A DNA stretch of 20,186 nt from a virus. Made by a program: the position numbers and the translations under genes. Each line of letters opens with the position of its first letter. Within the stretch, counting starts at the first letter, position 1. The stretch lies in IMG/VR virus record IMGVR_UViG_3300019763_000020, positions 1 to 20,186 of that record; one strand, 5' to 3'. Positions 484-20,095 of the stretch are shown in pieces. The notes beneath the pieces were generated by a model. The model saw nothing but the letters and a program-made list of their open reading frames with translations. It was not told where the DNA came from and did not search any database.

Positions 484-524
484 AGAAACTCCAATAATAA
501 TTTATCAGAGTTATTATAGCAAAA

Positions 525-1307: not shown

Positions 1308-1322
1308 AATATTCCTTTGTGT

Positions 1323-1359: not shown

Positions 1360-1407
1360 GTTAAAATTTATTTACAGTCATCTTGGCGGAGGTGACTTTC
1401 TTATTAG

Positions 1408-4850: not shown

Positions 4851-4853
4851 TTT

Positions 4854-5009
4854 CTACTCCTCTTGTTTTAAACTATCTTTTGCTATTTCTACATATTGTT
4901 CAAAGTGATCAAGAGATAAATTCATCTGATCACTTAATGTAAAATGTAAAACTGCTCCTACCAAAGCTGTATCTATTATAAGATTTTGGCTTTGGCTCTT
5001 TGTAAACCC
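4854..5009 (-). CDS. E': E' extension of the tail assembly chaperone, reached by -1 frameshift
   Basis: On the minus strand the gpE frame contains the heptamer G_GGT_TTA (5009-5003), in exactly the phase required for a -1 slip (X_XXY_YYZ), at gpE codons 84-85. From there the -1 frame is open for 49 sense codons and ends in TAG at 4856-4854, three bases before the tape measure start. The fused gpE-E' would be 134 residues. The extension reads TKSQSQNLIIDTALVGAVLH and continues to an end in Lys-Gln-Glu-Glu. It has no start codon of its own, and it fills the otherwise empty gap between E and the tape measure. P2 makes gpE+E' by the same kind of slip; the particular heptamer here is my reading of the sequence. 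Confidence 0.78.
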   Translation of the reverse strand, partial: GFTKSQSQNLIIDTALVGAVLHFTLSDQMNLSLDHFEQYVEIAKDSLKQEE

Positions 5010-5257
5010 ATTAATGTACTTTGTAAGGTTGTATATTCAGCTGCATCCCACTCTTCAACATCATCCATTGTTATTTGAAGATCAGTAAGATTACCAATTA
5101 AAGCAATCTCCCTTTCAACTGGATTATTGATATGATCTACAGCTAACATATCTTTTACTTTTGGTACTCTCATTGTTACTTCTTTTACCTCTTTACCATC
5201 AACTAAAATTGGCAACTCAAATATAATCTTTTTTGCTTCTCTTTTTGTTTTTTCCAT
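4976..5257 (-). CDS. E: Tail assembly chaperone gpE
   Basis: The short chaperone is made together with its frameshifted longer form and coats the tape measure protein before tube assembly. The frame of 93 residues matches P2 gpE in size and in the pattern LPILVDGKEVKEVTMRVPKVKDMLAVD. That motif introduces the family's beta-hairpin-then-helix fold ('L..P...dg..v..l.lR.P...d'). The ATG has AGGA five bases upstream, at the end of the tube gene. It sits between tail tube and tape measure, the place for this gene in P2-like tails. The frame ends in TAA while the -1 frame continues; see the E' entry for the slippery site. Confidence 0.88.
   Translation of the reverse strand: MEKTKREAKKIIFELPILVDGKEVKEVTMRVPKVKDMLAVDHINNPVEREIALIGNLTDLQITMDDVEEWDAAEYTTLQSTLMGLQRAKAKIL
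5003..5009 (-). promoter_or_regulatory. -1 ribosomal frameshift slippery heptamer (G_GGT_TTA)
   Basis: The minus-strand bases 5009-5003 read GGGTTTA, with GGT and TTA being gpE codons 84 and 85. A simultaneous -1 slip gives GGG and TTT, keeping first and second base pairing. It is the only X_XXY_YYZ heptamer I found in the overlap between a -1 frame stop upstream and the gpE stop downstream. Confidence 0.7.
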
Positions 5258-5269
5258 CTCTTATTCCTA

Positions 5270-5770
5270 TTAATTAATGTGGTTTCTTAGCTCTTCTAAA
5301 TAGTCAACACCATCTATAATTGCAATCATATTTTCAGTATCAAATAAACAACCTTGTTTACCATCAATCTCCATCATAAAATAAGTAGGAAAATGTTTCA
5401 CTTTATATTCTGCTTCTTTTCCCTCTTCAATCTTTCCAGGATCTAAATCTACTCCACCTTGAATTGTTATAAATACAGGTACCTTTTTTCCACCTTGATG
5501 AATTGAAGCTTTTACTGTTAAATTTACTCCAGATCCACTAGCTTCTCCAGCTGCCATTGCTGCCATAATTGTTGGAGACCATTGTGAAAATACAGACTCA
5601 GCTTCTAGTTTTTTAAAAATACCAGTATCAACATCTTTTTCAAATCCACCTGATTTAATTGTATTTCGTATCTTCTCAAGCTTTGGAACTTGAAAAGTTT
5701 TACTTACACCTAAATGCCCAAAACCATCTACAAAAAAGTTTGCACCTACGAAAGATTGTGGTAAATTCAT
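5270..5770 (-). CDS. FII: Major tail tube protein, P2 gpFII family
   Basis: This protein forms the stacked rings of the inner tail tube through which DNA passes. The 166-residue frame has the FII-type opening MNLPQSFVGANFFVDGFGHL and then VPKLEKIRNTIKSGGF, matching the family's 'lP...l...n.fvdG....G......PkL......e.r..G' pattern. A beta-rich body follows. Length is close to that of P2 FII (about 170 residues). The start overlaps the sheath stop in a TAATG junction with GGAGG just upstream, so tube synthesis is probably coupled to sheath translation. Sheath followed by tube is the universal order in such tails. Confidence 0.92.
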   Translation of the reverse strand: MNLPQSFVGANFFVDGFGHLGVSKTFQVPKLEKIRNTIKSGGFEKDVDTGIFKKLEAESVFSQWSPTIMAAMAAGEASGSGVNLTVKASIHQGGKKVPVFITIQGGVDLDPGKIEEGKEAEYKVKHFPTYFMMEIDGKQGCLFDTENMIAIIDGVDYLEELRNHIN

Positions 5771-6906
5771 TACTCACCTCCATTTATATAATTTATTAAC
5801 ACTTCGTTCCATTCATCACTATAAACTAACTCAATGTTTAACTCTCTAACTGTTGCCATAGTTCCAACTGTAATAGTTAGATAAAACTTACCAGCTGTTA
5901 CAGTCGCATTTGTATTTTTTAAAGGATCAAAGATTGCATTAAATCCAAGAACTACACCAGCCCCTTTTAACTCTCTCATAAAATCTGCCACAGCTTGTTT
6001 TACTTTGATAAGTTCACTTGCCTCTCTATCACGAGCAAATTTACTAGCTTTCATAATGGCTGTTAATAGTCTATGAAAAGTTCTAACTCTCTCTAAACTT
6101 TGCCATACAACTTCTATATCAGTTGTCTCAAAACCATACAATCTCCAACCCTCATCTTTAAGAATTGTTGCCATACCTTTTTGTCTTAATCTTCTAGCTT
6201 CACAATCAGAACTCTCAAGGTATTCAATAATCTCACTTGTCTCTTCATGTTCAATTCCAGACACTCCTCTTACAACTCTATTACTATGACTTTTTGACCA
6301 ACCAAAAGCTTTAGAATCCCAAAATGCAATATGACCAGCTACCAATGCACTAAATGGAATCTTCTCTCCATCAGCCTTATACAATCCACTTCCAATTAAA
6401 ACAAATCTAGTACCAAAATTAGTGATATAATCATTTCTTTCAGCTTCCGTTTTACTAAAATTATCAGTAATAGCAGTTGCCCATAATTGTTTAGCAATAC
6501 TATCTAGCTTCATAGCTACTTCTACATCTTGGCTAAAGAATGGAGATATAATCACACCATTTCTAAGATTTATGCCTGTTACTGTATCACTATTTTTAAA
6601 CTCATTTATTCCATCTAAAACATTTGCTTTATCAGTTGCTTCATCAACTGGAATAATTAAAAACACTACTATAGGACAGTTAACACCTTGAAGATTGATA
6701 CCTTTTAAAACAGCTTTTAAATTTCCACCTGTAATAGTATTATCTTCAATATAATCCAATCCCTCTTGAGCATTATTAAACTTTTTAAAGCCAACATCAC
6801 CTTTATCTACAGTTGCAACAATTCCAATTGCAGTTGTACTATTTACTATAATTGGATTAGCAGCTTTAGAGCTAATTTCTCCATTTATTCCATAATTTAA
6901 ATCCAT
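5770..6906 (-). CDS. FI: Contractile tail sheath protein, P2 gpFI family
   Basis: The sheath surrounds the tube and contracts to drive it through the envelope, so its presence defines a myovirus-type tail. The 378-residue frame is near the normal P2 FI length of about 400. Recognisable stretches are the N-terminal NPIIVNSTTAIGIVATVDKG, the SPFFSQDVEVAMKLDSIAKQL region, and the C-terminal IKVKQAVADFMRELKGAGVVLGF with GKFYLTITVGTMATVRELNI. The last of these is the conserved domain that holds the sheath to the tube. An AAGGAG six to seven bases upstream of the ATG supports the start. The gene begins 27 bases after a small unknown gene and is followed at once by the tube gene. Confidence 0.95.
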   Translation of the reverse strand: MDLNYGINGEISSKAANPIIVNSTTAIGIVATVDKGDVGFKKFNNAQEGLDYIEDNTITGGNLKAVLKGINLQGVNCPIVVFLIIPVDEATDKANVLDGINEFKNSDTVTGINLRNGVIISPFFSQDVEVAMKLDSIAKQLWATAITDNFSKTEAERNDYITNFGTRFVLIGSGLYKADGEKIPFSALVAGHIAFWDSKAFGWSKSHSNRVVRGVSGIEHEETSEIIEYLESSDCEARRLRQKGMATILKDEGWRLYGFETTDIEVVWQSLERVRTFHRLLTAIMKASKFARDREASELIKVKQAVADFMRELKGAGVVLGFNAIFDPLKNTNATVTAGKFYLTITVGTMATVRELNIELVYSDEWNEVLINYINGGE

Positions 6907-6933
6907 TTTATCTCTCCTTTATTTTGATAAACT

Positions 6934-7377
6934 TCACTTTAATAACTCAATTCGCTCAGCCCTTAATATATTTAATTGATCTTCTAAAGCAAGTAACTTA
7001 TTAACATCATATTCATCAGGTTCAGTCTCTTTCAATTCCGCTATTTTTATAGAAGATAAAGGTCTAATTTTTTCACCTTCTATTTCTTTAAAGCGTTTAT
7101 CAATTTCACTTATTCTATTTGTAATTAAATCTTCTTTTGTAACTTCTTTTGGAGTATCCAAGATATTCTTTTCTTTTTCAAATTCATCCAAAACAAATTG
7201 ATATTTCGCAAGTGGTACTTCTTGCATTAAAGGCTCTTCTAAACAAAAGTTATTTCCTTTATGGAATTGAACCGCTGTTATATCTTCTTTTAATGATATT
7301 GTTATCTCTATATCTCTACTATCTACAATTACGCTATTACCTACATAGGTCATTTGTTTAATATCTGAAAAATTCAT
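6934..7377 (-). CDS. Small tail-region protein of unknown function, possibly a fibre chaperone
   Basis: A 147-residue protein. The N-terminal half (MNFSDIKQMTYVGNSVIVDS, then ITAVQFHKGNNFC) resembles the small beta-rich proteins found beside tail fibre genes in many Gram-negative phages, in which a 'Y..n..viv' strand is followed by 'i..iqw..g'. The C-terminal half, from about residue 85, is charged and strongly helical (EISD/EIDKRFKEIEGEK, then LLALEDQLNILRAERIELL) and likely a coiled coil. It lies two genes downstream of the tail fibre, where fibre assembly chaperones usually sit. That position and shape are the only reasons for the suggestion; no chaperone family is clearly recognised. The start ATG follows closely on the stop of the preceding gene. 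Confidence 0.6.
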   Translation of the reverse strand: MNFSDIKQMTYVGNSVIVDSRDIEITISLKEDITAVQFHKGNNFCLEEPLMQEVPLAKYQFVLDEFEKEKNILDTPKEVTKEDLITNRISEIDKRFKEIEGEKIRPLSSIKIAELKETEPDEYDVNKLLALEDQLNILRAERIELLK

Positions 7378-7379
7378 TT

Positions 7380-7595
7380 TTACTCACTCTCTTCATTTAC
7401 TGATAATTTATCATTTTCTATAACTGCATTTGCACCTTGTTTTATTATCTCTATAATTTCATCTAAACTATTTTTACTGTTTAGTACCATAGAAGCAGTT
7501 AGAACAGTAGTTGCACTCATTAAGCTATCTTGACTACATTCTGATTCTATATTTACATTTCCATTTTCTATATCTATTAAAATTGATTCATTCAT
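7380..7595 (-). CDS. Small acidic protein of unknown function
   Basis: A 71-residue acidic protein with an Asp/Glu-rich N-terminus (MNESILIDIENGNVNIESE), a central stretch of small and hydrophobic residues that could be a helix (SATTVLTASMVLNSKN), and an acidic C-terminus. The central stretch is too short and polar for a safe membrane call. An AAAGG sits seven bases before the ATG, within the last codons of the fibre gene, so the small size does not reflect a spurious frame. It is squeezed between fibre gene and next small gene with gaps of two or three bases, meaning it is co-translated with the tail. Nothing in it is recognised. An adaptor or chaperone role is possible from context only. 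Confidence 0.6.
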   Translation of the reverse strand: MNESILIDIENGNVNIESECSQDSLMSATTVLTASMVLNSKNSLDEIIEIIKQGANAVIENDKLSVNEESE

Positions 7596-7598
7596 TTT

Positions 7599-8420
7599 TT
7601 AACCTTTCATTATGTATGCTAATTTCATATAAGGAGGTAAGTTCTTACCTATTCCATTTACACCACTTTTGTTTACTGTTACACCGTGAGCATGGCTTCC
7701 TGCTGTAGATGTTGTTACATTTTTTGTATTTACTTTTATGGTATGTGAGTGATTTCCAGTAGTGTTCGTTTTTGGAGCATGACCTGATTGAAAATTAGAT
7801 GCACCTGCTCCTACTGTAAATACTTCAGATAATGATTGATGTCCGTATCGTGACTGCCAAGATTCTATCCCATTATACCCCGTATGATGATTATGATTAC
7901 CTGCGGTATTTGAACTTGCAGTATGATCATGATTTGCAGTATGATTATGACTTCCTGCAGTATTTGAACTAGCAGAGTGATTATGTTCTACTACAACTGC
8001 ATTTGCACTACCACCTGTTGCACCTACATCACTATCTTTACTTGCTCCATAAATAAAACGAGCTCTTAAATCTGGTGTATTATTTTGTCCGTTACACAAA
8101 AACCAACCACTTGGAATTGTAGAAATTGAACCGCTCCACATTGTTATTACACCACGAGGAATAGCTTGAAAATTATTAAATGCTGTATCTAGTTGCCCTT
8201 TATTTATAGCTTCTTTACTATTTGTTGCATCTTTAACTTTAAAAGTTTTAGTTTCATCTCCCTCTTTATTTGCTTTATGCTCTTTAAGCCACTGTGTACG
8301 GTCTGCCAAGTTTTTATGAGGTAAATTATCAATACCATTTTCCCCTCCTTGAACCGGATCAGTGATTTCTAACTGATAAATCTCATTACTCCAAGTTTCT
8401 TTCTCTTTTATTCCTGGCAT
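7599..8420 (-). CDS. Tail fibre / collar-domain protein with HxH repeats
   Basis: The receptor-binding fibre of the phage. The N-terminus (about 15-48: ITDPVQGGENGIDNLPHKNL then ADRTQWLKEH) is the usual baseplate-attachment segment of prophage fibres. Residues 88-130 (PRGVITMWSGSISTIPSGWFLCNGQ, TPDLRARFIYGA) are the phage tail collar domain, and the C-terminal NLPPYMKLAYIMKG closes it. Between lie six His-x-His motifs: HNH at 146-148 and 158-160, HDH 164-166, HNHH 176-179, HSH 224-226, HAH 243-245. In T4-type fibre trimers such motifs bind metal ions along the axis. The DNA here carries an imperfect 54-base direct repeat. AGGAGG lies five bases before the ATG. Protein length, 273, is short for a fibre, so the spike reach would be small. 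Confidence 0.88.
   Translation of the reverse strand: MPGIKEKETWSNEIYQLEITDPVQGGENGIDNLPHKNLADRTQWLKEHKANKEGDETKTFKVKDATNSKEAINKGQLDTAFNNFQAIPRGVITMWSGSISTIPSGWFLCNGQNNTPDLRARFIYGASKDSDVGATGGSANAVVVEHNHSASSNTAGSHNHTANHDHTASSNTAGNHNHHTGYNGIESWQSRYGHQSLSEVFTVGAGASNFQSGHAPKTNTTGNHSHTIKVNTKNVTTSTAGSHAHGVTVNKSGVNGIGKNLPPYMKLAYIMKG
7889..7985 (-). repeat. Imperfect 54-base tandem repeat inside the fibre gene
   Basis: Two copies, offset by 54 bases (cores starting near 7901 and 7955 on the plus strand), encode the 18-residue repeats around SSNTAGSHNH and SSNTAGNHNH. They share most positions, so the His-rich region probably grew by in-frame duplication. Confidence 0.7.
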
Positions 8421-8429
8421 ATTATCCTC

Positions 8430-9047
8430 CTAATGTGTATATTTTGAATCATAATAAAATGTTCCATTTCGTTCTTGTACTCGTGTTACAAATCCTATTA
8501 AGGAACATCGCATAGGTGCATATTCCTTTAGTAGTTTTCTTGCCAATACATTTTTATATGTATTCATTGCAACTTGTATTTCAACTGCATATTCAGCCCA
8601 ATGCTTAAATTGAAAATCATAAATTTCAATACCATCATTATGTTTCACTCTGCTATTAAAGTTGTGTGTACCATCTCTTTGAACATCATATTTATAATTA
8701 TTTCTATCTTTATATTCGATGATTACAGCTTCATAATCAGGTAAACTAAGACCAACAGCTTTCAGAACTTCTAAAATAGCCCATCTAGTCCCTTTTAATC
8801 TATGAAGTTTGGGACTAGCTTTTATTAAAGCTCGTTTATCCATATCCCTTAATCTCTCATCCCATAAATCAACCTTGTTTTGATATGCTAAATATGCTAA
8901 ATATTTAGAGTCACACTGATCTGCATCTGCTAACTTTGTTATGACATTTATCTCATCACCAAGCTTTTCATGAATATCAAATGCCACATGATCAGCTTTA
9001 TGTAATTTAAACTCCTCAAATGGTGGAATAAGTGATTGATGTTTCAC
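8430..9047 (-). CDS. I: Tail protein I, P2 gpI family
   Basis: P2 gpI-type proteins are baseplate wedge components next to gpJ that hold the tail fibre. The 205-residue frame carries the family signature in KYLAYLAYQNKVDLWDERL (about residues 49-67; 'LP.LAw...vD.W') and KLHRLKGTRWAILEVLKAVG, followed by a middle W-rich segment (HWAEYAVEIQVAM). The start codon is GTG at 9047, chosen because an AGGAG lies six bases upstream, while the only nearby ATG is followed at once by a stop. The gene overlaps gpJ by 32 bases and is followed by the fibre gene. This J-I-fibre order is that of P2. Confidence 0.92.
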   Translation of the reverse strand: MKHQSLIPPFEEFKLHKADHVAFDIHEKLGDEINVITKLADADQCDSKYLAYLAYQNKVDLWDERLRDMDKRALIKASPKLHRLKGTRWAILEVLKAVGLSLPDYEAVIIEYKDRNNYKYDVQRDGTHNFNSRVKHNDGIEIYDFQFKHWAEYAVEIQVAMNTYKNVLARKLLKEYAPMRCSLIGFVTRVQERNGTFYYDSKYTH

Positions 9048-10194
9048 TACATACTCCTATCTCATTATCAGAGTTAATTACATTTTGAAGAGGTGCTAAG
9101 ATAATTACTTCTTTAACACCTGGTACTTTTAAAAAGTCATTGATTTCACTTAGAGTTATATTTGTACCAATTTGTTTTAATGATTCTAAACCCTCATTTA
9201 AACTTTTAATTGCATTAGAATAAACAGCTGCTACTTCTTGATTTGGTAATAGTTTTAATTCTGCATTTACTACAAAATTCTTTTGTGTAGCAGCTGCTAC
9301 TTTTACAACATCACTAAGTGGTCTTACCTCTTCTTTATTTAAGCTCTGTTCAATTCTACTTTGCATAAGATCATCTGCATCTGCACTATAATAATACACT
9401 TTAACAGTTGCTATATCATTCGTAAATTCAATTAATGCATCTAAAATTTCATCTTCACTTTTCTCAAAAAACATCGATACATAATCTTCTAATGGTTTAA
9501 TTCCATTTTTGATACTTACATCTTCAATTCTCTCATCAGCTTTAAAAGTAAAGGACTTGTATGTTTCTTCACTTCCAGCAGTTGATTTATCAGCCATAGA
9601 TAAAAGTATTCTATGTTTGAGTTCATCATCTTTTTCAACATCACTGCCATTTGAAAAAACTTCTAAAGCTTTTACTTCTACTAAAAACGGAAAACTTGTA
9701 GTTACTGTTTCAGTTTTGATATCACTTTGTTTTGTCTCTTCTTGAAGTTCTACAACGCCAGTAGCTTTATCCTCTCCAGCTTTTATAGTTACACTATTTA
9801 AAAGTTTTGCTGTGTGAATACTTGTACCATCTATTAAAGTAAATCCTGAAGGGATAACTAAATCTGTATCTCTTATCGCACTTAATTTAAATTCATAAGG
9901 GGCATATGGTTTACTTCCTTTTAGTCTCTCAAGTCCATAACGCAAAGCCCAATTATCTAAATCCTCATTTTTAGCAGTTAATAAAAAGAAAGCTTTTGAG
10001 AGTTCATTAAATTCAGCTCTTAAATATAACTCTCTATATGCAAAGGCATCTAAAATGAGTTTAAATTCATCACTCTCAAGAGGAATCCAGTCAGGTACAA
10101 GAGTTTTAAAATTATTAATGTTTTGTTGTAAAATCTCATCATAATCCAAGATTTTTAAAACACTTGGTAATGGTAAATTATCAATATTAATCAT
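9016..10194 (-). CDS. J: Baseplate assembly protein J
   Basis: gpJ forms the wedge of the baseplate and is related to T4 gp6 and type VI secretion TssF. The 392-residue frame is longer than P2 gpJ (about 300), with an insertion or extension in its central and C-terminal parts. Family signs are the N-terminal 'ETLVPDW.p...D....ll.a.aYrel' motif, here VPDWIPLESDEFKLILDAFAYRELYLR, followed by LDNWALRYGLER ('LD.lg..ygv.R'). The central SNGSDVEKDDELKHRILLSMADKSTAGSEETYK is the 'G.d.EsDe.yr.Ri....e..s.AGs...Y' motif. Its ATG overlaps the gpW stop in an ATGA junction. The C-terminus overlaps gpI, consistent with a coupled W-J-I unit. Confidence 0.93.
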   Translation of the reverse strand: MINIDNLPLPSVLKILDYDEILQQNINNFKTLVPDWIPLESDEFKLILDAFAYRELYLRAEFNELSKAFFLLTAKNEDLDNWALRYGLERLKGSKPYAPYEFKLSAIRDTDLVIPSGFTLIDGTSIHTAKLLNSVTIKAGEDKATGVVELQEETKQSDIKTETVTTSFPFLVEVKALEVFSNGSDVEKDDELKHRILLSMADKSTAGSEETYKSFTFKADERIEDVSIKNGIKPLEDYVSMFFEKSEDEILDALIEFTNDIATVKVYYYSADADDLMQSRIEQSLNKEEVRPLSDVVKVAAATQKNFVVNAELKLLPNQEVAAVYSNAIKSLNEGLESLKQIGTNITLSEINDFLKVPGVKEVIILAPLQNVINSDNEIGVCSETSITYSTI

Positions 10195-10478
10195 AAAACT
10201 ACTCCTACAAATCCACCATTGGTAAATGCTATTTTTAATGTCACAACTCCAGTTATAGGAGTTACCTCAAAATCTACTTTAGAAACTTTTACTCTTTTTT
10301 CCCATTTTGTGATTGCTTCATATGTATATTGAGTTGCTTTTAATTTAAACTCATCATTAAACTCTCTATCTTTAAGCTCATGTAATCTACTCCCAAATAA
10401 AGGATTCATAACACGACTTCCAAGAGGTGTTTTTAAAATTCTTTTAATGCTATTTGGAATTGAGATTTGATACATCAT
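10191..10478 (-). CDS. W: Baseplate wedge protein W (gp25-like lysozyme fold)
   Basis: gpW belongs to the T4 gp25/TssE family, a small wedge protein needed to start sheath assembly. The frame contains the diagnostic stretch SIKRILKTPLGSRVMNPLFG followed by SRLHELKDREF, equivalent to 'I..IL.T..GsR.m.p.yGs.L..l'. The frame can be read from an ATG at 10523, but this would overlap gpV by 44 bases and add residues foreign to the family. An AAGG at 10483-10486 spans the gpV end and fits the paired ATGs at 10478 and 10475. I use 10478; the second has the better spacing. The product is about 95 residues. It ends overlapping the start of gpJ. Confidence 0.9.
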   Translation of the reverse strand: MMYQISIPNSIKRILKTPLGSRVMNPLFGSRLHELKDREFNDEFKLKATQYTYEAITKWEKRVKVSKVDFEVTPITGVVTLKIAFTNGGFVGVVL

Positions 10479-10479
10479 A

Positions 10480-11124
10480 TTACCTTGCGTTAGATGTTCC
10501 ACCATCACTATCATTATGTCCATGACATGTTAAGTCACCCTTACTATCACTTATATGTCCAGTAGTGCTAATATCTCCATCAACACTAGCACCACTTCCA
10601 CCGCTAATTGCAAGACCACCTTTTCCAGTTATCAAGTTTGAGACTGTTAAATTTCCATTTATAGTTACATCGCCAGTATTTGATGTAGTTGCAGTTACAT
10701 CAACTGTATCAGCTTTTACAGTTGCAGCCTTACAAATAATAGTGATTTTGTCACTAGCATTTACCTTTAACTCTTTAGCAGCAGTATCATAAGAGATAAC
10801 AGTTCCATCTTCATACTCCATCACTTCACAAGTTTGACTACTCCCATTTGGCTCTTTACATGATCTATTAAATATACCTCTTATAATAAATCCACTAGAC
10901 GCATCTCCAAAAACTGAAAATACTAAGACTTGCTCATTAACTCTCATTGGAATAAAGTGTCTTTTGAATGTATTTGAAAAAGAAACAACAGGATAGAAGT
11001 CAGTAACCCTATCAAATATCTTTACTCTAGCAAGAGCTTTACCTTGAGCACTTTTAGTTTCACTAATAGTGCCAATTGATATTAAGTTGTTTAATCTTCG
11101 TAATAATTCAGATAGATTCATCAT
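10480..11124 (-). CDS. V: Baseplate spike protein V with metal-binding tip
   Basis: gpV forms the trimeric membrane-piercing spike at the end of the tail tube. The frame has an N-terminal OB-fold-type region (SAQGKALARVKIFDRVTDFYP, then RVNEQVLVFSVFGDASSGF), followed by a repeated beta-helix-like part rich in Thr, Val, Gly and Asp. The tip segment GHISDSKGDLTCHGHNDSDG contains the HxH motif (HGH) that in P2 spikes holds an iron ion. Three upstream residues could be added from a TTG at 11139, but the GGAAAA at 11125-11130 fits the paired ATGs at 11124 and 11121. The operon order V-W-J-I is that of P2. Length is about 214 residues, comparable to P2 V. Confidence 0.93.
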   Translation of the reverse strand: MMNLSELLRRLNNLISIGTISETKSAQGKALARVKIFDRVTDFYPVVSFSNTFKRHFIPMRVNEQVLVFSVFGDASSGFIIRGIFNRSCKEPNGSSQTCEVMEYEDGTVISYDTAAKELKVNASDKITIICKAATVKADTVDVTATTSNTGDVTINGNLTVSNLITGKGGLAISGGSGASVDGDISTTGHISDSKGDLTCHGHNDSDGGTSNAR

Positions 11125-11143
11125 TTTTCCAATTTTCAAAGAC

Positions 11144-11692
11144 TTATTTTAATTTAAATGCTTGTTTATCTTTTTCTTTACTACCGATACTAGATCCAAA
11201 GAAAAAACCATCAACAGCCATAACTCTATTTGTAACAAGAGTAATAAGACCACTTACAAATCCACTTATTGCCATAGCCAAACCTTTATCATGTATAAAG
11301 TATGCTGTTGCAAATAATGTAATAATTCCAAGTAATACAACAAAATAAAACTGAAAATTGATATGGTTTACTAAGCTTTTTTGAATTGAACTATCTTCTC
11401 GAAAAACCTCTACACTCAAAGATTTATCTTCAATTTGCAGTTCTTTATCTTTTAGATCAAGCTCTTTGATTCTAAGTTCAAAGTCTTGCTCTAATTTTTT
11501 GAGTTTATAAACAGATTCAGGATTTGAAGAGATATGATCTAAAATATCCTCTTTTTTTGTTGCAGTAATACCTAATGCATTAGCTGCACCTTTTACTACT
11601 TGACCTGTTAAATCTTTTATAGCTTCATCTTTATCATCACTTGTAAAAAGTTTATATATAGATGGTGCTGCGGCTAATAGTGCTGTTAACAT
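11144..11692 (-). CDS. Holin, 3-TM/GTA-type family
   Basis: The protein probably forms the timed lesion in the inner membrane that starts lysis. The 182-residue frame has an N-terminal hydrophobic segment (MLTALLAAAPSIYKLF), a charged helical middle (about residues 20-105), and two clear membrane segments: FQFYFVVLLGIITLFATAYF and GLAMAISGFVSGLITLVTNR. The C-terminus has the motif DGFFFGSSIGSKEK, which I know from the '3-TM holin, gene-transfer release' family. AGGAG nine bases before the ATG supports the start. It lies immediately before gpV and after a small membrane protein, forming a short lysis unit. No endolysin gene is visible in the window, so the muramidase or amidase must be elsewhere. 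Confidence 0.75.
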   Translation of the reverse strand: MLTALLAAAPSIYKLFTSDDKDEAIKDLTGQVVKGAANALGITATKKEDILDHISSNPESVYKLKKLEQDFELRIKELDLKDKELQIEDKSLSVEVFREDSSIQKSLVNHINFQFYFVVLLGIITLFATAYFIHDKGLAMAISGFVSGLITLVTNRVMAVDGFFFGSSIGSKEKDKQAFKLK

Positions 11693-12001
11693 TTATTTAC
11701 TCTCCTGTAATAGATCTAAGATTTTATTGTTCTGAATTTTTATTTCATCCATTGACTTATTAAGATGATTCACTTCACTTTTATATAATTCCATAGAAAC
11801 AAAAGTCTCTCGAGCTTTTTTCTCTTCCATCATCAAATTACATTTATCTTTTAGATCTTCGTAATTCTGTGAAATCTTTATTATTTTGGTAGTATTCTCT
11901 TTCGTTTGAATCTTATTTGTTATATAAGATGTAAGCCAAGCTCCAAAAATACTTACTACATAAATAAAGTTTTTCAAGTCAATCGTAAACTCCATAATCA
12001 T
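11693..12001 (-). CDS. Small membrane-anchored coiled-coil protein, possible spanin-like lysis accessory
   Basis: A 102-residue protein with one membrane segment near the N-terminus (about residues 11-28, NFIYVVSIFGAWLTSYIT), followed by a long charged helix with coiled-coil pattern (about 33-98). An N-terminal anchor with a periplasmic helix is the form of Rz-type inner-membrane spanins; DUF2730-type phage proteins have the same layout. No spanin-specific motif is present, so the function is inferred only from topology and from the neighbouring holin, whose start it abuts. It is the first gene of the leftward operon. AGGA stands four bases before the ATG at 12001 (a second ATG follows at codon 3). 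No outer-membrane lipoprotein partner is seen. Confidence 0.55.
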   Translation of the reverse strand: MIMEFTIDLKNFIYVVSIFGAWLTSYITNKIQTKENTTKIIKISQNYEDLKDKCNLMMEEKKARETFVSMELYKSEVNHLNKSMDEIKIQNNKILDLLQESK

Positions 12002-12174: not shown

Positions 12175-12612
12175 ATGTCAAAGTTGCATGAATTAGAACT
12201 AATAGATAGATTAAAAGATATCGCCACTACACAAAAGTATTATGGTGAACTAGAACATCCCTCTACTGCTCAATTCTTACAAAATGATTTACCTTTAATA
12301 TATGTAGATTTTCTTGGTGAAGATACAATTGATAGTTTCACTTTAGAATTAAAATATAGCTTATATATTGTTCATCTTTCATATTCAAAACATAAAAGTA
12401 CTAGAACAAAAAAACATTATGAGTTATATGATCTAAATGCAGATATTAGAAAAGAGTTATTTATGACATCTATTCTTGACTCACAACCGCTTTCATTAAA
12501 AAAATTATCAAAAATATATGATGCAGTAAGTGCAAATGGATATCTGACAATCTATAAAAGAGATCTTTCGTTTAGTATTCCAAACAATATTACACAGGAA
12601 GATTTAAATTGA
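12175..12612 (+). CDS. Putative neck/tail-terminator protein, DUF1834 (Mu gp37)-like
   Basis: The 145-residue protein has an N-terminal helix, then LPLIYVDFLGEDTIDSFTLE and a beta strand followed by LYIVHLSYSKHKSTRTKKHYELYDLNADIRKEL. This matches the Mu gp37/DUF1834 layout, in which a 'P-x-(V/I)-x-V-x-(Y/F)-x-G' strand precedes a conserved beta core and a helix with 'Y-x-L-x-D-x-(I/V)-x-x-x-L'. Such proteins connect head to tail. It opens the right arm directly before the protease-scaffold gene, whereas in Mu gp37 comes after the capsid genes, so this call depends on weak sequence resemblance. AGAGG four to five bases before the ATG is the ribosome binding site. Confidence 0.5.
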   Translation: MSKLHELELIDRLKDIATTQKYYGELEHPSTAQFLQNDLPLIYVDFLGEDTIDSFTLELKYSLYIVHLSYSKHKSTRTKKHYELYDLNADIRKELFMTSILDSQPLSLKKLSKIYDAVSANGYLTIYKRDLSFSIPNNITQEDLN

Positions 12613-12973
12613 AAAAGAAACAGGAGTATTCAAAATGAATAAATCATTAATTGCTTGTTCAATTTTATTTGCATTATCTACAGCAAAAATAGATGAAGAT
12701 TTAAATGAAATAAAACTTGCAGTAGTAGGAAAATGGAAAGGTCATCCAGCTGGTCCTTTTGAACTAACACATGAAGATCTAGTTCAAATCAAAACTAACT
12801 TTGACAATGGAGAGGTTGATATTGTTGTTGATTTTGAGCATTCATCTTTATGGAATGAAAAAGCACCAGCAACTGGCTGGATTAAAGAGCTATTTTTCAA
12901 AGAGAAAGATTTATGGGCAAAAGTAAAGTGGATAGGTGACTCAAAAGAACTTATCAATTCTGAACACTATAAA

Positions 12974-12976
12974 TAG
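12974..12976 (+). other. In-frame amber codon in the protease gene
   Basis: TAG replaces a conserved Tyr position (HYK-stop-ISPVF) with the same frame open on both sides. Several neighbouring genes end in TAG (gpD, gpI, E', small terminase), so TAG is not generally reassigned here. Confidence 0.85.
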
Positions 12977-13129
12977 ATCAGTCCTGTATTTGATTCTAAA
13001 ACAATAGATCAAGTAAGTGGCGATGATATGGGCTGGAGCTTACATAGTGTTGCTTTAACAAATAGACCATTCCTAGAAGAATTAGGAGAAATTATCGCAA
13101 ACAATAGAAGTCAAAAAGGAGATACAACT

Positions 13130-13441
13130 ATGACTGAAAAAGAACAAAAAAGACTTGATGATCTTGAAAAAGAAAATCAAAAGTTAAAAGATGATGCAGC
13201 TACAACTGAAGAAAAAAGAGTTGAAGAGGAAGTAGATACTGCCATTGCAAACTCTAAAGCAACACCTGAACAAAAAGAGTCACTTCTAGCATTTGGAAAA
13301 AGTGATCCTGAAGGATTAACTAAATTACTTGAAGCTGCATCAACAACTATTGTTGCACCAGAAAATGACTTGTATGTAAATAGCAAACAAAACCCAAATG
13401 CACCAAAATATGATGTATTAAAATTAGCAGGAGTGAACTAA
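13130..13441 (+). CDS. Nested capsid scaffold protein, in frame within the protease gene
   Basis: Inside the protease reading frame (codon 166) an ATG at 13130 is preceded by AAGGAG at 13116-13121, spacing eight bases, one of the better Shine-Dalgarno sites in the window. The 103-residue product starts MTEKEQKRLDDLEKENQKLK, a strong heptad coiled coil up to about residue 45, followed by an acidic helical part and a C-terminal Pro/Asn-rich segment. In Mu the scaffold Z is likewise made from an internal start in gene I. Because the start lies beyond the amber codon, scaffold synthesis does not depend on readthrough. The stop overlaps the decoration gene ATG by one base (TAATG). Function is inferred from position and from the coiled coil. 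Confidence 0.72.
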   Translation: MTEKEQKRLDDLEKENQKLKDDAATTEEKRVEEEVDTAIANSKATPEQKESLLAFGKSDPEGLTKLLEAASTTIVAPENDLYVNSKQNPNAPKYDVLKLAGVN

Positions 13442-13773
13442 TGTTTACAGGACAAAATGTAAAAAATGTAACACAAAAAAAACAAAGTGATGTGGTAATT
13501 AAAAAAATACTATCTGATTATGCAAAGGTAACTTTACCAGAAGATGCAGATGTATTAGAACCAGGACAAGTATTAATTACAGTAGATGGAGGAAGCACGT
13601 TTACAGTTCCAGCTGATGAACTTGCTGAGCCAAATGGAATTTTATGTGAAGCATTAAAAGCTACAGGTAAAGCTGAAGTATTAGTATGTGGTGTTGTAAG
13701 AGAAAAATATCTTACATCTTATGTAGCAGATTACAAAGTGCATTTATTTGCAAATAAAATTATTTTAAAGTAA
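13441..13773 (+). CDS. Head decoration protein, lambda gpD type
   Basis: The 110-residue protein is predicted to sit as trimers on the outside of the expanded head and stabilise it. The sequence has a basic N-terminus, then PEDADVLEPGQVLITVDGGS and ILCEALKATGKAEVLVCGVVRE, matching the lambda head decoration pattern, in which 'G.vL..........(d)g..i.gil..a' leads to 'v.v.l.g.v...al'. The C-terminal stretch (VADYKVHLFANKIIL) resembles the family end 'l...gI..k'. It sits between scaffold and major capsid protein, as in lambda (Nu3-D-E), with a one-base overlap to the scaffold stop and nine bases before the capsid start. Confidence 0.85.
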   Translation: MFTGQNVKNVTQKKQSDVVIKKILSDYAKVTLPEDADVLEPGQVLITVDGGSTFTVPADELAEPNGILCEALKATGKAEVLVCGVVREKYLTSYVADYKVHLFANKIILK

Positions 13774-13782
13774 GGAATTAAA

Positions 13783-14760
13783 ATGTCATTTTTAGAAATT
13801 ATGAAATTATGGACTATAGTAAAGACTATGGCTGCAATTAACCAAATGAAAACTACAGGTACTTATATCTTTGATAGATATTTCAAAGGTGTTGGAAAAC
13901 CAGTTATGGGAAATACTGCAAAACTGAAAATCAAAAAAGGTGCTGGAATTGTTCTTAAAACTATTGCACCAGGTGCTGATAGATTAGTACAAGATTTAAA
14001 AGATGTTTATGAATTAACTATAGAACTTCCAAGGTTTGGATTAAGTGGTCAAATATTAGCTCATGAGATTAATGCATTTGAAACACTTGAGGGTGAAGCA
14101 AAAGCAGAAGCAATTTCGCAAAAGATTGCTGAGATTATTAAAGAGCATAAAGATGATTATATGACGACTATTGAACATATGTCAACAGGTGCTTTATTTG
14201 GAAAAGTTGTAGATGGAGATGGAAAAGTATTATTTGAATTTAAAACAACAGCAGCTCCAATTGATTTCAAAAATAAAACTATTATTGAATCTTTAAATGC
14301 AGTTGATGATGCTCTTGTAGATGAATTAGGAAAAGAAGTACCTTATGAAGTTTTAGCTTCAAGAGATTTTATGAATAGAATTTCTGCTAATGCAACTGCT
14401 GCTGAACTATTTAAAACTGGTGAAGCAAAATGGATTAATGAATCTAATAAAAGAGTATTAGAAGTTCATGGTACTAAATTTATTCCTTACTCTGCATCAT
14501 GGACAGATGAAAATGGAAATAAAAAACCATATATTGAAGCTGGACATGCTGTAGTTATTCCAAAAACTCCTGATGTATTTCAGTTGGTATATGGAAGAGC
14601 TGATCATATGGAAGCATTAAAATCTGCTCCAAAACTTTTCTTTGCATCAAAACCTGAAGAGTTAGAGAAAGGAAAAGGTTGGGGAATTGAAACAGAAACA
14701 AAACCACTTCCATATTGTGTAAGACCAGGTGCTTTAATTAAGTTGAAATATACAGCTTAA
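13783..14760 (+). CDS. Major capsid protein, lambda gpE family
   Basis: The 325-residue protein forms the icosahedral shell. It has the family's N-terminal pattern (TIVKTMAAINQMKTTGTYIFDRYFKG), the middle PRFGLSGQILAHEINAFETLEG, and the C-terminal HAVVIPKTPDVFQLVYGRADH, equivalent to lambda E's 'D...f.....a..a.....' and 'p..........y.pap...'. The length is close to that of lambda E (341). TAAGGA upstream serves as Shine-Dalgarno. The gene ends TAA followed directly by an in-frame TAG, a doubled stop. It is followed by the terminator region, as is common for the most abundant virion protein. Confidence 0.93.
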   Translation: MSFLEIMKLWTIVKTMAAINQMKTTGTYIFDRYFKGVGKPVMGNTAKLKIKKGAGIVLKTIAPGADRLVQDLKDVYELTIELPRFGLSGQILAHEINAFETLEGEAKAEAISQKIAEIIKEHKDDYMTTIEHMSTGALFGKVVDGDGKVLFEFKTTAAPIDFKNKTIIESLNAVDDALVDELGKEVPYEVLASRDFMNRISANATAAELFKTGEAKWINESNKRVLEVHGTKFIPYSASWTDENGNKKPYIEAGHAVVIPKTPDVFQLVYGRADHMEALKSAPKLFFASKPEELEKGKGWGIETETKPLPYCVRPGALIKLKYTA

Positions 14761-14777
14761 TAGCAAAAAACCAATCT

Positions 14778-14823
14778 GCCACTAAATGGCGATACTATTA
14801 AACCTCTAAAAGGTTTATATAGT
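14778..14823 (+). other. Two tandem stem-loops with the same CTAAA loop
   Basis: Behind the capsid stop, GCCA-CTAAA-TGGC (14778-14790) is followed by a longer hairpin at 14794-14823. The stem AAACCT/AGGTTT (14800-14816) again encloses a CTAAA loop, and it extends with ACTAT/ATAGT after a one-base asymmetry. Stem bases differ but pair in both, and the loop is identical. See findings. Confidence 0.6.
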
Positions 14824-14856
14824 AAAAGCTCATATTTGGATTATATGGGCTTTTTT
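14824..14856 (+). terminator. Intrinsic terminator after the capsid gene
   Basis: AAAAGCTCATAT (14824-14835) pairs with ATATGGGCTTTT (14843-14854) with one T-G wobble and a seven-base loop, followed by further T residues to 14856. This is a long hairpin with a U-run. It should end or reduce transcription before the DUF1320-terminase-portal block, giving more shell mRNA than motor mRNA, or separate two transcripts. Confidence 0.8.
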
Positions 14857-14938
14857 ATGATTAGATGACAAATCTATCGTTTAAAAAGAGTTAAGAGTTT
14901 TTAAACACATTTTAAACGGTAAGAAAAAAGGATTAAAA
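14857..14938. promoter_or_regulatory. Leader with repeated TTTTAAAC half-sites before the DUF1320 gene
   Basis: GTTTAAAAA (14879-14887) is a perfect inverted match to TTTTTAAAC (14898-14906) with a ten-base spacer. CGTTTAAAA (14878-14886) also matches TTTTAAACG (14910-14918). The left arm can thus pair with either copy but not both. It may be an operator with three half-sites or an RNA switch; no clear promoter is seen. AAGGA at 14928-14932 is the ribosome binding site of the next gene. Confidence 0.4.
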
Positions 14939-15346
14939 GTGATAAACAATCAAGACTTACTAAAAGAGATAAGTGAACAACAATTATTAGAATTATCAGA
15001 TATTAATGCAACAGGGGAAATTAACCAAGATGTAATTGATGATGCATTAAACGACTCAATCTCTTTTATTGAATCTTTTATTATTTTGCCAAATAATCCA
15101 ACACCACTATTAAAAAAAATTACAGTTGATCTAACTATCTATGAACTGAAAAGAAAAAATAGTTTTGTAAGTGATATAGATAAGGAACTCAAAAAAGAGA
15201 ACGAATCATATTTAAGCAAAATGAGTAATGGGAGATTAAGAACTGAGATTATAAAAAATGAAACAGCCTCAGTTCCAAAAGATTCTAATAATTTTGCATT
15301 TAGACATAGATCAAATAGAAGAGTAAATACAAAAGGTTTTAGATGA
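14939..15346 (+). CDS. DUF1320 neck protein, Mu gp36 family
   Basis: Mu gp36-type proteins are part of the head-tail connection. The 135-residue frame starts at GTG (14939), justified by AAGGA at 14928-14932, six bases upstream; no ATG lies nearby. Family signs are the opening 'i...dLl..is..eL.eLsd' with Asp/Asn-rich INQDVIDDALNDSISFIESFIILP, matching 'd...i..ai..As..id.yl..rY.lPl', then LKKITVDLTIYELKRK ('L...a.diA.y.L'). The last 25 residues are basic and likely disordered. Four bases of overlap to the next gene (ATGA junction) join it to the terminase genes. In Mu this gene lies far behind the capsid gene, here it lies before the terminase. Confidence 0.75.
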   Translation: MINNQDLLKEISEQQLLELSDINATGEINQDVIDDALNDSISFIESFIILPNNPTPLLKKITVDLTIYELKRKNSFVSDIDKELKKENESYLSKMSNGRLRTEIIKNETASVPKDSNNFAFRHRSNRRVNTKGFR

Positions 15347-15849
15347 TTAAGTTATCAAATGCAGATAGAAATAGACTATTATCAAGATCACTTTTTGTAG
15401 ATGCGAATAAATCATATAAAGAGATTGCAGAAACTTTAGGAGTATCAGATAAAACAGTAGGTAATTATCAAACAAAAGATAAATCAGAAGGTTTTGATTG
15501 GTTGACTCTACGAGCTAGTAAACACATTTCAAAAGCAAATGATACAAAAGAAAATATGTACTCTATGTTCACACAGTATATGTTTGATAGTTTAAAAGAG
15601 ATAAGAGAAAATGAAGAACTGTCACCAGCTACTAAGAGTGAAGCTATAGCCTCTTTAGGAGATAGCTTCTCAAAGATGGGAAAAATTGCAAGACAAGAAG
15701 ACCCTGAAGCTTATAAACTGGGAATTATAAAATACACAGTAGAAACCTTACTTATAAATATCAAAGATGTAGTATCAAAAGAATGTATGGAAAGTATCAT
15801 AACTAAGATTCATGATATAGGTGAGGAACTCTCTAATGTCTCTATTTAG
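15343..15849 (+). CDS. Small terminase subunit, DUF1804 (Mu gp27)-like
   Basis: This protein should bind the packaging site and guide the large terminase. The 168-residue frame has a helix-turn-helix at about residues 25-45 (KSYKEIAETLGVSDKTVGNY) followed by QTKDKSEGFDWLTLRASKH, the family's 'aA...gVs..Ta.rWk..ak..GdDW...Ra'. The C-terminal half is helical and suits ring formation. The ATG overlaps the stop of the upstream gene in ATGA. The end overlaps the large terminase gene. Mu gp27 is the neighbour of large terminase gp28 in Mu, which agrees with the order here. Confidence 0.82.
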   Translation: MIKLSNADRNRLLSRSLFVDANKSYKEIAETLGVSDKTVGNYQTKDKSEGFDWLTLRASKHISKANDTKENMYSMFTQYMFDSLKEIRENEELSPATKSEAIASLGDSFSKMGKIARQEDPEAYKLGIIKYTVETLLINIKDVVSKECMESIITKIHDIGEELSNVSI

Positions 15850-17569
15850 TAAAGATGAATTACTAGAACATTTAAAAGACACAGAACAACAAGCTTTAGA
15901 TAGTGGAGCTAATAAGAAAAAAGCTAGAAAGATAGCAAAAAAAGCTTTTAAATCTTGGTTAGATGATTTTACTTCCTCTTTAAAAGAACAAATTAAAATA
16001 AGTGATACATTAGATCCTAATGAAAAGCATTTAAGAGTACTTACTCAATCAAACGATTTTCATTATTTTAGAAATACTTACTTTCCTCATTATTATACTT
16101 TAGAGGGAAAATCAGGACTACAAGATGATTTAGAAGAGACCTACTACAAAATTGTAGATAAAGATAAACATTCTGGGTTAAAATTTGCAAAAGCAGCACC
16201 AAGAGGTAATGGTAAATCCACAGATGCATCTATAGTATTTCCTTTATGGTGTATCGTAAATGGTTTTAAAAATTTTATCACTATATTCTCTGATGCAATA
16301 GAACTAACAGAAACACTCATTGAATCAATTAAAGTAGAACTAGAAGAAAATGACAGACTAAGAGCTGATTTTCCTGAAGCAGTAGGTATGAGTAAAGTTT
16401 GGAAGATTGGGGAGATAGTTACAAACAACAATATCAAAATAAAAGGTTTTGGTAGTGGTAAAAGAGTAAGGGGTATCAAGCATGGAGTTTATAGACCTGA
16501 CTTAGCCATCATAGATGATCTAGAAAATGATACAAATGTAAGAAGTAGAAAACAAAGAGATAAACTTGAAGAGTGGCTTGATGAAGCTATTGATAACTTA
16601 GGAAGAGTTGATGGTTCTATGGATATTTTATACATAGGTACCATTTTACATAGAGACTCAGTTCTAGCTAGAAAGCTCAAACTCAAGTTTTGGCATCCAG
16701 CAATATTTAGATCACTTATTAGCTATCCAACTAATATGCATATGTGGGAAGAGTACACAAATATTTATAAATATGAAGGTGTCAATGAAGCTAGAAACTA
16801 TTACTTAGATAACAAATCTTTGATGGATGAAGGAGCAGTTCTTTTATGGGATGCAGTTAGTCTAGAACTTCTTATGCAAAAAAGAGCAGCTAATACTAAA
16901 GCATTTCAAAAAGAGCAGCAGAACAATCCAAATAGCGAGAATCAAAAGTTTGACTCTAGTAAGTTTCAAAAGATATCACCAACTCAAATGCCAAAGCTTG
17001 ATTATATCTATATGTTTGTAGATGCAAAAGGTGACTCAGACCAAGGCGACTTTTGTGGGATACTTGCAGGTGGAGTAAGTCTAGCTACCCAAAAACTCTA
17101 TATATTCCTCTCAAAACAAGAGCGTATCAAAGGTAAGCCTGTAGTTACAAAAGTAGTAAATATGCTAAATGAAATGAAAGTATATATGCTAGGTGGTGAT
17201 AAGAATGGTGGTTTTTATATGCTTAGAGATTGGATTAAAGATGAATGTTTCAAGCAAGGTATTCCAGCTCCCCTTATGAGGTTTACACACTGGACTGAGA
17301 ATAAAGAGGACAGAATGGGTGAATTAGAGTTTCCTATAGATGATGGAGATATTATATTTGTAGGAGATCATCCTGAGCTATTCAATCAAATGGATGACTT
17401 CCCTGAATCTGAAAACGATGATTTACATGATCCTCTATCTGCAGTTTACAGAATGAGTAAATTAAGAAGATTAAAAAAAGACGCAAATGGAAGTGGAAAA
17501 CGCTCAAATACGAGAGCTACTAGACATAAACGACCAAGTAGAAATTCAAGAACAAGAGGAAGACGATAA
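15836..17569 (+). CDS. Large terminase subunit (packaging ATPase-nuclease), Mu gp28 type
   Basis: The motor that cuts and pumps DNA into the head. The 577-residue frame has a Walker A motif APRGNGKST (about 121-129), a Walker B LAIIDDLE (about 223-230), a coupling motif region YIGTILHRDS, and a C-terminal nuclease domain with FVDAKGDSD (from about 394) and a late acidic HDPLSAVYRM. A reading from GTG at 15821 is possible, but AGGA at 15824-15827 fits the ATG at 15836 with eight bases, so I start there. It overlaps the small terminase by 14 bases. The last 30 residues are strongly basic (Arg/Lys/Ser/Thr) and likely disordered, unlike the core. Genes follow to the portal with a TAATG junction. 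Confidence 0.93.
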   Translation: MSLFSKDELLEHLKDTEQQALDSGANKKKARKIAKKAFKSWLDDFTSSLKEQIKISDTLDPNEKHLRVLTQSNDFHYFRNTYFPHYYTLEGKSGLQDDLEETYYKIVDKDKHSGLKFAKAAPRGNGKSTDASIVFPLWCIVNGFKNFITIFSDAIELTETLIESIKVELEENDRLRADFPEAVGMSKVWKIGEIVTNNNIKIKGFGSGKRVRGIKHGVYRPDLAIIDDLENDTNVRSRKQRDKLEEWLDEAIDNLGRVDGSMDILYIGTILHRDSVLARKLKLKFWHPAIFRSLISYPTNMHMWEEYTNIYKYEGVNEARNYYLDNKSLMDEGAVLLWDAVSLELLMQKRAANTKAFQKEQQNNPNSENQKFDSSKFQKISPTQMPKLDYIYMFVDAKGDSDQGDFCGILAGGVSLATQKLYIFLSKQERIKGKPVVTKVVNMLNEMKVYMLGGDKNGGFYMLRDWIKDECFKQGIPAPLMRFTHWTENKEDRMGELEFPIDDGDIIFVGDHPELFNQMDDFPESENDDLHDPLSAVYRMSKLRRLKKDANGSGKRSNTRATRHKRPSRNSRTRGRR

Positions 17570-18948
17570 TGTGGTTTAGAAATAAGAATAAAAAAGAAAC
17601 AAAAAAAGAGCAAAACAAAAGAGAGAAAGTATCACTTACTTCAAGTAATAAAAACATATTAAAATCTATCTTTGATCTACCAGTTCAAGAATCATGGTTA
17701 AGTGAAGATACTATTGAAAAAATATTAAGAGATGGTACAGTTGAAAGCTCAATCGGAAGTAGAAAAGCAGCCACTCTAAAAAAAGAGATCATTATCACTT
17801 GTAAAGATGACAAGATGAGAAAAGAGCTAGAAAATATCTTTAACTATGACATATTAGATTGTATTCTAGACACACCATATTATGGTTTCAACACTTTTGA
17901 GATCAACTGGGAAAATAAGAATAATATTTTATATCCAACTTTAGAAGATAGAGACTATAAAGAGTTTATTTTAGATGGTAAAAAACTGTGCTACTTTCCA
18001 AATGGAATGATGCAAGAGATACCTCCTTATAAATCTGTTTATGTAACATACAGAGCAAAAGCTAAAAGACCCTATGGCAAACCTATTTTAAATACATTGT
18101 TTTGGTTAATAGAATTTAAAAATGCTTCATTAGAATTTTGGGTTGAGTTACTTGAAAAGTTTGGTACACCTTGGGTTATAGGTAAAACAGAAGGTAACAA
18201 AGATGATTTTGCAGATGAGATATTTAATATGCTTGGTGGAGATGGAGCTGTTATTGATAGCGAGGATTCTTTAGAGATAAAAACAGCAACAGACAAAGGA
18301 AACTACAAAGAGCTAATAGAATATATAGATGATCAAATAAGACAACTTATCTTAGGTGGAAATCTTACATCAAATGTAAAAGGTGGTTCACAAGCAGCTG
18401 CAACAGTTCATAATGATATTAGAGAAGATCTAGCAAAAGCAGATGAAAATATAGTAAATAAAGTTATCAAAGAGGTACTTCACTATTTTACAGAGCTAAA
18501 CGGAATCACAGAAGAGATAAAAGGGGAGTTCAAAGATAAAGATGATCCAAACAAAGCTTTAGCTGATAGAGACAAAGTTATATCAGAGATGGGATATACA
18601 CCAACACAAGAGTATATAGAGCAAACTTACAATATTAAAGTTGAAAAGATTGAAGATTCTCAAACAGTTATAGCAAATAGTAAACTTATTTCTTTGTCTA
18701 AAGATATGCCTGAGGATGAGCTAGAGTATCAAGCCAATCAACTTGATACAAAAAAACCACTCACATTTCAAAAGCAAATTTTAGAGATTATTGAAAATAG
18801 TAAATCGTTTGAGGATATGCAAGATAAACTTTTAACACTTTATCCAAATACAAATACAGATGATTTACAAGAAATACTCTTTAACAATATTGCAAATAGT
18901 GAGATACTAGGACGAGCTGAAATAGAGAACGAAAATGGCAACAGTTAA
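17569..18948 (+). CDS. Portal protein, DUF935 (Mu gp29) family
   Basis: The dodecameric portal through which DNA enters and leaves the head. The 459-residue frame has the basic N-terminus, then the DUF935 stretch VESSIGSRKAATLKKEIIIT, ILDTPYYGFNTFEINWE ('i..a...G.s..E..W'), and the C-terminal region with FGTPWVIGKTEG ('yG.P...g') and GGNLTSNVKGGSQAAATVHNDIREDL ('G.tlt........g....Aav...v...i'). Its length is somewhat below Mu gp29 (about 510). Start: ATG in TAATG, with GAGGAAG upstream. It ends inside the next gene, overlapping by 14 bases. Portal directly followed by MuF is typical of Mu and SPP1-type modules. Confidence 0.92.
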   Translation: MWFRNKNKKETKKEQNKREKVSLTSSNKNILKSIFDLPVQESWLSEDTIEKILRDGTVESSIGSRKAATLKKEIIITCKDDKMRKELENIFNYDILDCILDTPYYGFNTFEINWENKNNILYPTLEDRDYKEFILDGKKLCYFPNGMMQEIPPYKSVYVTYRAKAKRPYGKPILNTLFWLIEFKNASLEFWVELLEKFGTPWVIGKTEGNKDDFADEIFNMLGGDGAVIDSEDSLEIKTATDKGNYKELIEYIDDQIRQLILGGNLTSNVKGGSQAAATVHNDIREDLAKADENIVNKVIKEVLHYFTELNGITEEIKGEFKDKDDPNKALADRDKVISEMGYTPTQEYIEQTYNIKVEKIEDSQTVIANSKLISLSKDMPEDELEYQANQLDTKKPLTFQKQILEIIENSKSFEDMQDKLLTLYPNTNTDDLQEILFNNIANSEILGRAEIENENGNS

Positions 18949-20095
18949 TTTCAACTTTAATCTAGCTCCAAAAGACGCAATTAAATATCTACAAAATAAA
19001 GGTTTTAAACTCTCTTTTGATTATGATGAGCTACAAAAAGAAGCACATCTTAGAGCCTTTACAGTAGCAAAAGTTACAAGACTAGACTTACTCAATGATA
19101 TTTTTACAAATATAGATACAGCATTAAAAGATGGTAGATCATTTCAAGACTTCAAAAAGGAGTTAGTTCCAACACTTCAAAAAAAAGGATGGTGGGGAGA
19201 GCAGGATATAGTAAACCCTAAAACAGGAGAAGTAAAAACTATAAACATAGGTTCAAGAAGATTACGAAATATTTATAAAACCAATATGAGAGTAGCATAT
19301 CAAGTAGGAAGATACAAACAAAAAAAAGCACTTCCACTTAGTGTTTATTGGAGATATAAATCAGCATTACTAGAAAATACAAGGGAGGAACATGCCAAAA
19401 TGCATGGTATTCTACTCCATAAAGATGACCCTTGGTGGAATACAAACTATCCTCCAAATGGTTGGGGATGTCATTGTAAAGTTACAGCTCACAGTCTTAA
19501 AGATATAGAAAAACGAGGCTGGAGTATTGAAGATAAAAAGTTACCTAATATCGCTTCAAAAGATTGGGAGTACAATGTAGGAGATGGAAATACAATTTCC
19601 ACTCTAAGTAAAATTAATTTAGATAAGAGTTTAAATAACCTAACAAAAGTAAATGATGTAAAACAAACAAAATATAAAGAGTTAAGTGATGAGAAATTAA
19701 AGAATCTATTTTATACAAACATGGGTGTAAAAGCTGGTGATACTTTTATAGATAAGATTGGTGATCCTATGATTATAGATGATGAACTTTTTAAAATTAA
19801 TAATTGGACTAAAATCAAGAAAAAAGACAGACATTTATATTTAGACAAAATAGCAAAAACAATAAAAGAACCTCATGAGATCTATTTAGAATATGATGCT
19901 CCACACAATAGACTTTTAAAAAAGATGTTTAGATACTTAGATCATAATGGTAAAAAAAGAGCTGTATTAGTAATCTTTGAATATTTAAAAGATAAAACTC
20001 AAGGTGTAAGTGCTTATTTTGTAGATACTCCAAATGCTGTTGAGAAAAAAAGAATAGAAAAACTTATATATCAAGAGAGTACTCATAAAGAGTAA
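18935..20095 (+). CDS. MuF-type head morphogenesis protein with C-terminal PBECR-like nuclease domain
   Basis: The first part, about residues 1-215, is the MuF head protein (Mu gp30, SPP1 gp7), which associates with the portal and is carried in the head. Its marks are NTREEHAKMHGILLHKDD (about 148-165) and PPNGWGCHCKV (173-183; 'PP.G..C.C.v'). The second part, about 255-382 (KDRHLYLDKIAKTIKEPHEI, YLEYDAP, a basic Lys/Arg-rich loop, then KKRAVLVIFEY and YFVDTPNAVEKKR), resembles the PBECR class of phage nuclease domains of the barnase/EndoU/colicin/RelE type. These are known as C-terminal fusions to MuF. If so, the virion may deliver a nuclease with its DNA. Domain assignment is by eye; catalytic residues are not proven. 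The ATG overlaps the portal gene. Confidence 0.85.
   Translation: MATVNFNFNLAPKDAIKYLQNKGFKLSFDYDELQKEAHLRAFTVAKVTRLDLLNDIFTNIDTALKDGRSFQDFKKELVPTLQKKGWWGEQDIVNPKTGEVKTINIGSRRLRNIYKTNMRVAYQVGRYKQKKALPLSVYWRYKSALLENTREEHAKMHGILLHKDDPWWNTNYPPNGWGCHCKVTAHSLKDIEKRGWSIEDKKLPNIASKDWEYNVGDGNTISTLSKINLDKSLNNLTKVNDVKQTKYKELSDEKLKNLFYTNMGVKAGDTFIDKIGDPMIIDDELFKINNWTKIKKKDRHLYLDKIAKTIKEPHEIYLEYDAPHNRLLKKMFRYLDHNGKKRAVLVIFEYLKDKTQGVSAYFVDTPNAVEKKRIEKLIYQESTHKE

Follow-up and report, generated by a model that had tools for sequence, protein, structure and literature searches.

The stretch analyzed here (20186 bases in full, hereafter the window) is arranged in two divergent modules, with tail genes on the minus strand (1-12001), head genes on the plus strand (12175-20095) and the divergence point at approximately 12.0-12.2 kb. 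Annotations of related Helicobacter and Campylobacter phages show the same divergent arrangement of tail and head genes. The plus-strand gene at 12635-13441 is a head maturation protease and scaffold gene of the Mu-I/Z type, comprising 268 codons and a stop. Its frame opens with ATG 12635 behind the ribosome binding site AGGAG (12622-12626, plus strand) and stays open to the TAA at 13439-13441, except for a single break: an in-frame TAG at codon 114 (12974-12976, plus strand). The product as encoded (12635-12976) is 113 amino acids long, keeps D66 and H69, and lacks S138. The protease-only remainder (12977-13129, plus strand), which carries core strands as well as S138 within the conserved LHSVALTN, goes unread if the TAG terminates translation. 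A second ribosome binding site, AAGGAG (13116-13121, plus strand), lies in a zone conserved in relatives and precedes ATG 13130, the start of an intact nested scaffold of the Mu Z type (13130-13441, plus strand; 103 amino acids; PF10123, 29.5 bits). The major capsid protein gene (Phage_cap_E; 13783-14760, plus strand) is also intact.

A preliminary description of this locus had recognized a Mu-I-type protease gene whose frame runs on across the stop, with the motifs DFEH and GWIKEL 5' of the TAG and ISPVF and ALTNRPF 3' of it. Profile searches agree with both statements. The read-through protein scores 113.2 bits against PF10123 (Mu-like prophage I protein; curated cut-off 25.2) and falls into the PHROGs family phrog_328, head maturation protease (5.7e-37). 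Each half matches PF10123 as well—51.9 bits for residues 1-113 and 47.6 bits for residues 115-268—and a search of the record with this profile returns one match with a single TAG inside. The gene thus has the score and the nested scaffold start of a PF10123 member, and lacks a frame that stays open from the start of the protease through the end of the scaffold. Judged by its sequence, it is a member by descent that encodes a truncated protein, and the continuity of the frame across the TAG is not a matter of chance.

Homologues were collected from viral_contigs (80 kept out of 293 confirmed relatives), genome_contigs, a phage collection (three of ten matches taken) and 397 genomes of the phylum to which a Sulfurimonas MAG belongs, where 35 genomes had a match and 30 loci, 29 of them new, were taken. 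The nearest relatives of the window gene are the two copies in this one MAG: L158, with 64% identity, and L014, an uninterrupted gene that aligns end to end with the whole window frame at about 60-61% identity. Relatives found in plasmids are all below 60% identity. Among 190 related loci, 188 align across codon 114 (L190 and L191 do not), and these represent 151 distinct stretches. Tyrosine is encoded in 148 of them, phenylalanine in two, histidine in one, and a stop in none. This comparison, which the preliminary description had recommended, confirms that the stop replaces a family tyrosine, and excludes a split shared by all relatives. As far as the aligned sequences go, the TAG falls at an almost invariant position and is the one break in the Mu-I/Z frame; among the related loci, it is confined to the window record. 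Stops at other positions were also encountered. A distant homologue from Oscillibacter sp. 1-3 (L072) has its own in-frame TAG (10085-10087) in the place of codon 58, followed by conserved sequence. Two TAGs lie close to the start of another locus, L144, which may contain a frameshift or be truncated at the end of its contig; a TAA in L172 was rejected as an in-frame stop and read as the natural gene end.

The earlier claim that the scaffold from 13130 remains intact is also upheld. Of the 85 distinct relatives that cover the linker zone, 84 have a start codon with a purine-rich ribosome binding site there, compared with 1-8 of 85 when the same requirement is applied to seven control zones of equal size. 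On these counts, almost all relatives examined conserve the nested start of the Mu-I/Z scaffold. Since the stop lies upstream of this start, annotations of records like this one should not treat the scaffold as lost.

What the stop takes away is best judged from the intact relative L014. Residues D66, H69, H137 and S138 (L014 numbering, which agrees with the window) are invariant in 65 aligned relatives, and the roles of H69 and S138 are probably catalytic. The predicted structure of the L014 protein (mean pLDDT 85.3, pTM 0.57) contains core strands at residues 114-124 and 131-142, both at or 3' of the stop position, and a long helix at 169-206. Region 20-162 of the model aligns with herpesvirus proteases (assemblins) with Z scores of up to 10.2 (rmsd 3.2, 115 residues) and with T4 gp21 with a Z score of 8.8 (rmsd 3.6, 116 residues). 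Foldseek alone returns weak matches to the model (best E 8.3e-3); solved structures found by sequence are likewise weak matches, mostly to the scaffold part (best E 0.048). As modeled, the protease domain of L014, as distinct from the window protein, has the assemblin-type fold of herpesvirus and T4 gp21 prohead proteases. The 113-residue window product, with the conserved His69 kept and the conserved Ser138 and two core strands lost, should have no protease activity.

The age of the lesion can be gauged from the protease-only codons that follow the stop. Conservation was assessed in 36 sequences including the window, with <85% mutual identity, drawn from 60 distinct relatives. In the protease-only codons 115-163, the window retains all 14 of the 14 strongly conserved columns, and its private residues number 2 of 49 (0.041, against a mean of 0.044 in the other relatives); in codons 30-113, which precede the stop, its private fraction is 0.071 and the mean 0.052. 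No sign of relaxed selection 3' of the stop is seen over codons 115-163 in this set. The suggestion that an intact scaffold might relax selection against the stop therefore finds no support here: the protease-only codons after the TAG are as conserved as those of the relatives, so that any relaxation must be recent. Hence the stop is recent, read through, or an assembly error.

We also screened the window for wider decay, using 1016 ORFs of at least 70 amino acids from 23 of the 190 related loci, 424 of which had matches. The stop at 12974 is spanned by 23 of these ORFs. Other stops crossed in this screen belong to antisense or out-of-frame shadow ORFs, as read from frame and strand, with the exception of a stop at 18923, just 5' of the Mu-F-like start at 18935, which is crossed by three ORFs with a longer N-terminus. 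None of the 1016 ORFs matched the window in two pieces, as a frameshift would produce, and the proteins of the relatives reveal no other in-frame stop inside the coding frames of the 20-kb record. Relatives in the related loci were found for 25 of 26 window genes (the exception is 7380-7595), for some genes over only part of the length (52% in the case of 6934-7377, for example). The TAG is the sole lesion in a coding frame, and the notion of a defective phage is thus not backed by decay elsewhere; by the same token, the consensus looks good.

The reading we prefer, with a probability of roughly 0.65, is that a single nonsense mutation recently struck the head-maturation protease gene of a temperate Mu-like phage whose relatives are of the Campylobacterota type. 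Ribosomes would halt after 113 residues, and the resulting fragment, deprived of the conserved serine and the core strands of the protease fold, would be inactive; scaffold would still be produced from its own internal start. Proheads may then assemble, with the scaffold not removed and the heads failing to mature unless protease were supplied by a helper phage or the host suppressed the stop. On this reading, the phage copy is probably defective and young. The complete set of conserved columns and the low private fraction after the stop are expected of a young mutation, and also fit readthrough or a consensus error; the separate TAG at codon 58 of L072 counts in favor of a nonsense mutation. 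The earlier proposal of a defective prophage arising by point mutation survives in its first part, a defect being the likeliest reading, while prophage status stays a supposition, as the 20186-base record is without shown host flanks. Portions of PMC7918605 describe in-frame stops as a common and mostly short-lived feature of prokaryotic genes, commonest in the mobilome category, which combines phages and transposons. Like the prophage and mobilome cases in those portions, the window has one nonsense codon, set in a phage gene that is conserved around it; they describe comparisons of related genomes, whereas the window was compared without a close relative. The case is mostly a caution: a lone nonsense codon is nothing unusual for a single virus record of the metagenome type.

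Lone consensus substitutions that create a stop are uncommon, and this counts against the possibility that the real gene is intact and the TAG arose in sequencing or assembly, or that the metagenome consensus picked up a minority base or one from a mixture of strains. The lack of any frameshift or further coding-frame stop in the 20-kb record tells against it as well. The TAG is nevertheless the only lesion, set in sequence that is conserved all around it, and no second copy of the phage confirms it: the phage collection contains no DNA-level match, and viral_contigs gave 0 matches to a 49-base pattern in which the third base of codon 114 was left free. We consider such an error unlikely.

Functional suppression, in which ribosomes decode the TAG often enough to give a useful low dose of full protease-scaffold, appears rather improbable. 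Decoding could come from a suppressor tRNA, supplied by the host or by a missing part of the phage, or from plain leakiness. Compared with the scaffold, little protease is normally required, which counts for this explanation, as do the unrelaxed codons 3' of the stop. In the same direction, PMC7918605 argues that some level of readthrough occurs at many in-frame stops of bacteria. The evidence from the window points the other way. No tRNA genes were found in the 20186-base record, where suppressor tRNA genes had been proposed as a check, or in 37 related loci. The 100 nt 3' of the TAG contain no unusual RNA structure that might stimulate readthrough (z -0.04), and this, together with a stop conserved in 0 of 151 relative stretches, is not the pattern of programmed readthrough. 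TAG also ends three other window genes (1408-2343, minus strand; 8430-9047, minus strand; 15343-15849, plus strand) and is therefore a normal stop in this phage: over 27 ORFs we counted 17 TAA, 6 TGA and 4 TAG, the one at codon 114 included. A change of the genetic code was rejected on this tally, TAG being among the regular terminators, and within the 20186-base record we see neither the avoidance of TAG nor the suppressor tRNA that mark TAG-reassigned phages. The suggestion of low-dose protease by readthrough thus gains no positive evidence. Quite improbable, in our estimate, is the specific form in which the TAG serves to control dose, with little protease-scaffold made in hosts that decode a few per cent of the stops and an excess of scaffold made from its own start. 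If readthrough were true, the locus would naturally separate the dose of protease from that of scaffold. A split protease, with residues 1-113 active together with a C-terminal piece restarted 3' of the stop, is very improbable: the ATG-started ORF at 13028-13441 retains Ser138, but has no ribosome binding site before 13028 (ATCAAGTAAGTGGCGATGAT), lacks the strand 114-124, and has no counterpart among the relatives, none of whose 151 stretches is split at codon 114.

A nonsense mutation would have struck a familiar arrangement. In phage Mu, genes I and Z have the same layout, with a protease gene and an in-frame nested scaffold. PMC2628397, in the part considered here, states the layout for gp28/gp29 of KS10 and for 'many other phages', and the in-frame nested scaffold is thus known. 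Like Mu I/Z and KS10, the window has one frame with the protease on the N-terminal side, an internal scaffold start with its own ribosome binding site, and the capsid gene downstream; unlike them, its protease part is cut by the TAG at codon 114. Homologues with 37-64% identity occur in Campylobacterota, in Sulfurimonas OB8, in prophages of Helicobacter apodemus and H. pullorum, and in Campylobacter phage CAM-P21. In the three annotated phage records among them, the neighboring genes are similarly ordered and the tail genes lie on the opposite strand, and all of the named homologues, in contrast to the window, have a sense codon at 114. The window gene, of the Mu-I/Z type, contains an isolated in-frame amber, most likely a recent nonsense mutation by which the protease is removed and the scaffold spared.

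Several other features of the record deserve mention. In the tail module, within 4852-5257 (minus strand), a 93-amino-acid tail gene (phrog_166) is followed by an open extension of approximately 40 codons in another frame before the tape measure gene; read by eye, this is presumably the usual G/GT tail-chaperone frameshift. A DNA methyltransferase of the phrog_56 family (525-1325, minus strand) lies at the end of the tail module and is matched in only three related loci. In the head module, the Mu-F-like protein (18935-20095, plus strand) ends in a nuclease-like domain of the PBECR2 type (residues 268-380, 57.9 bits), possibly a toxin-like domain on a head protein.
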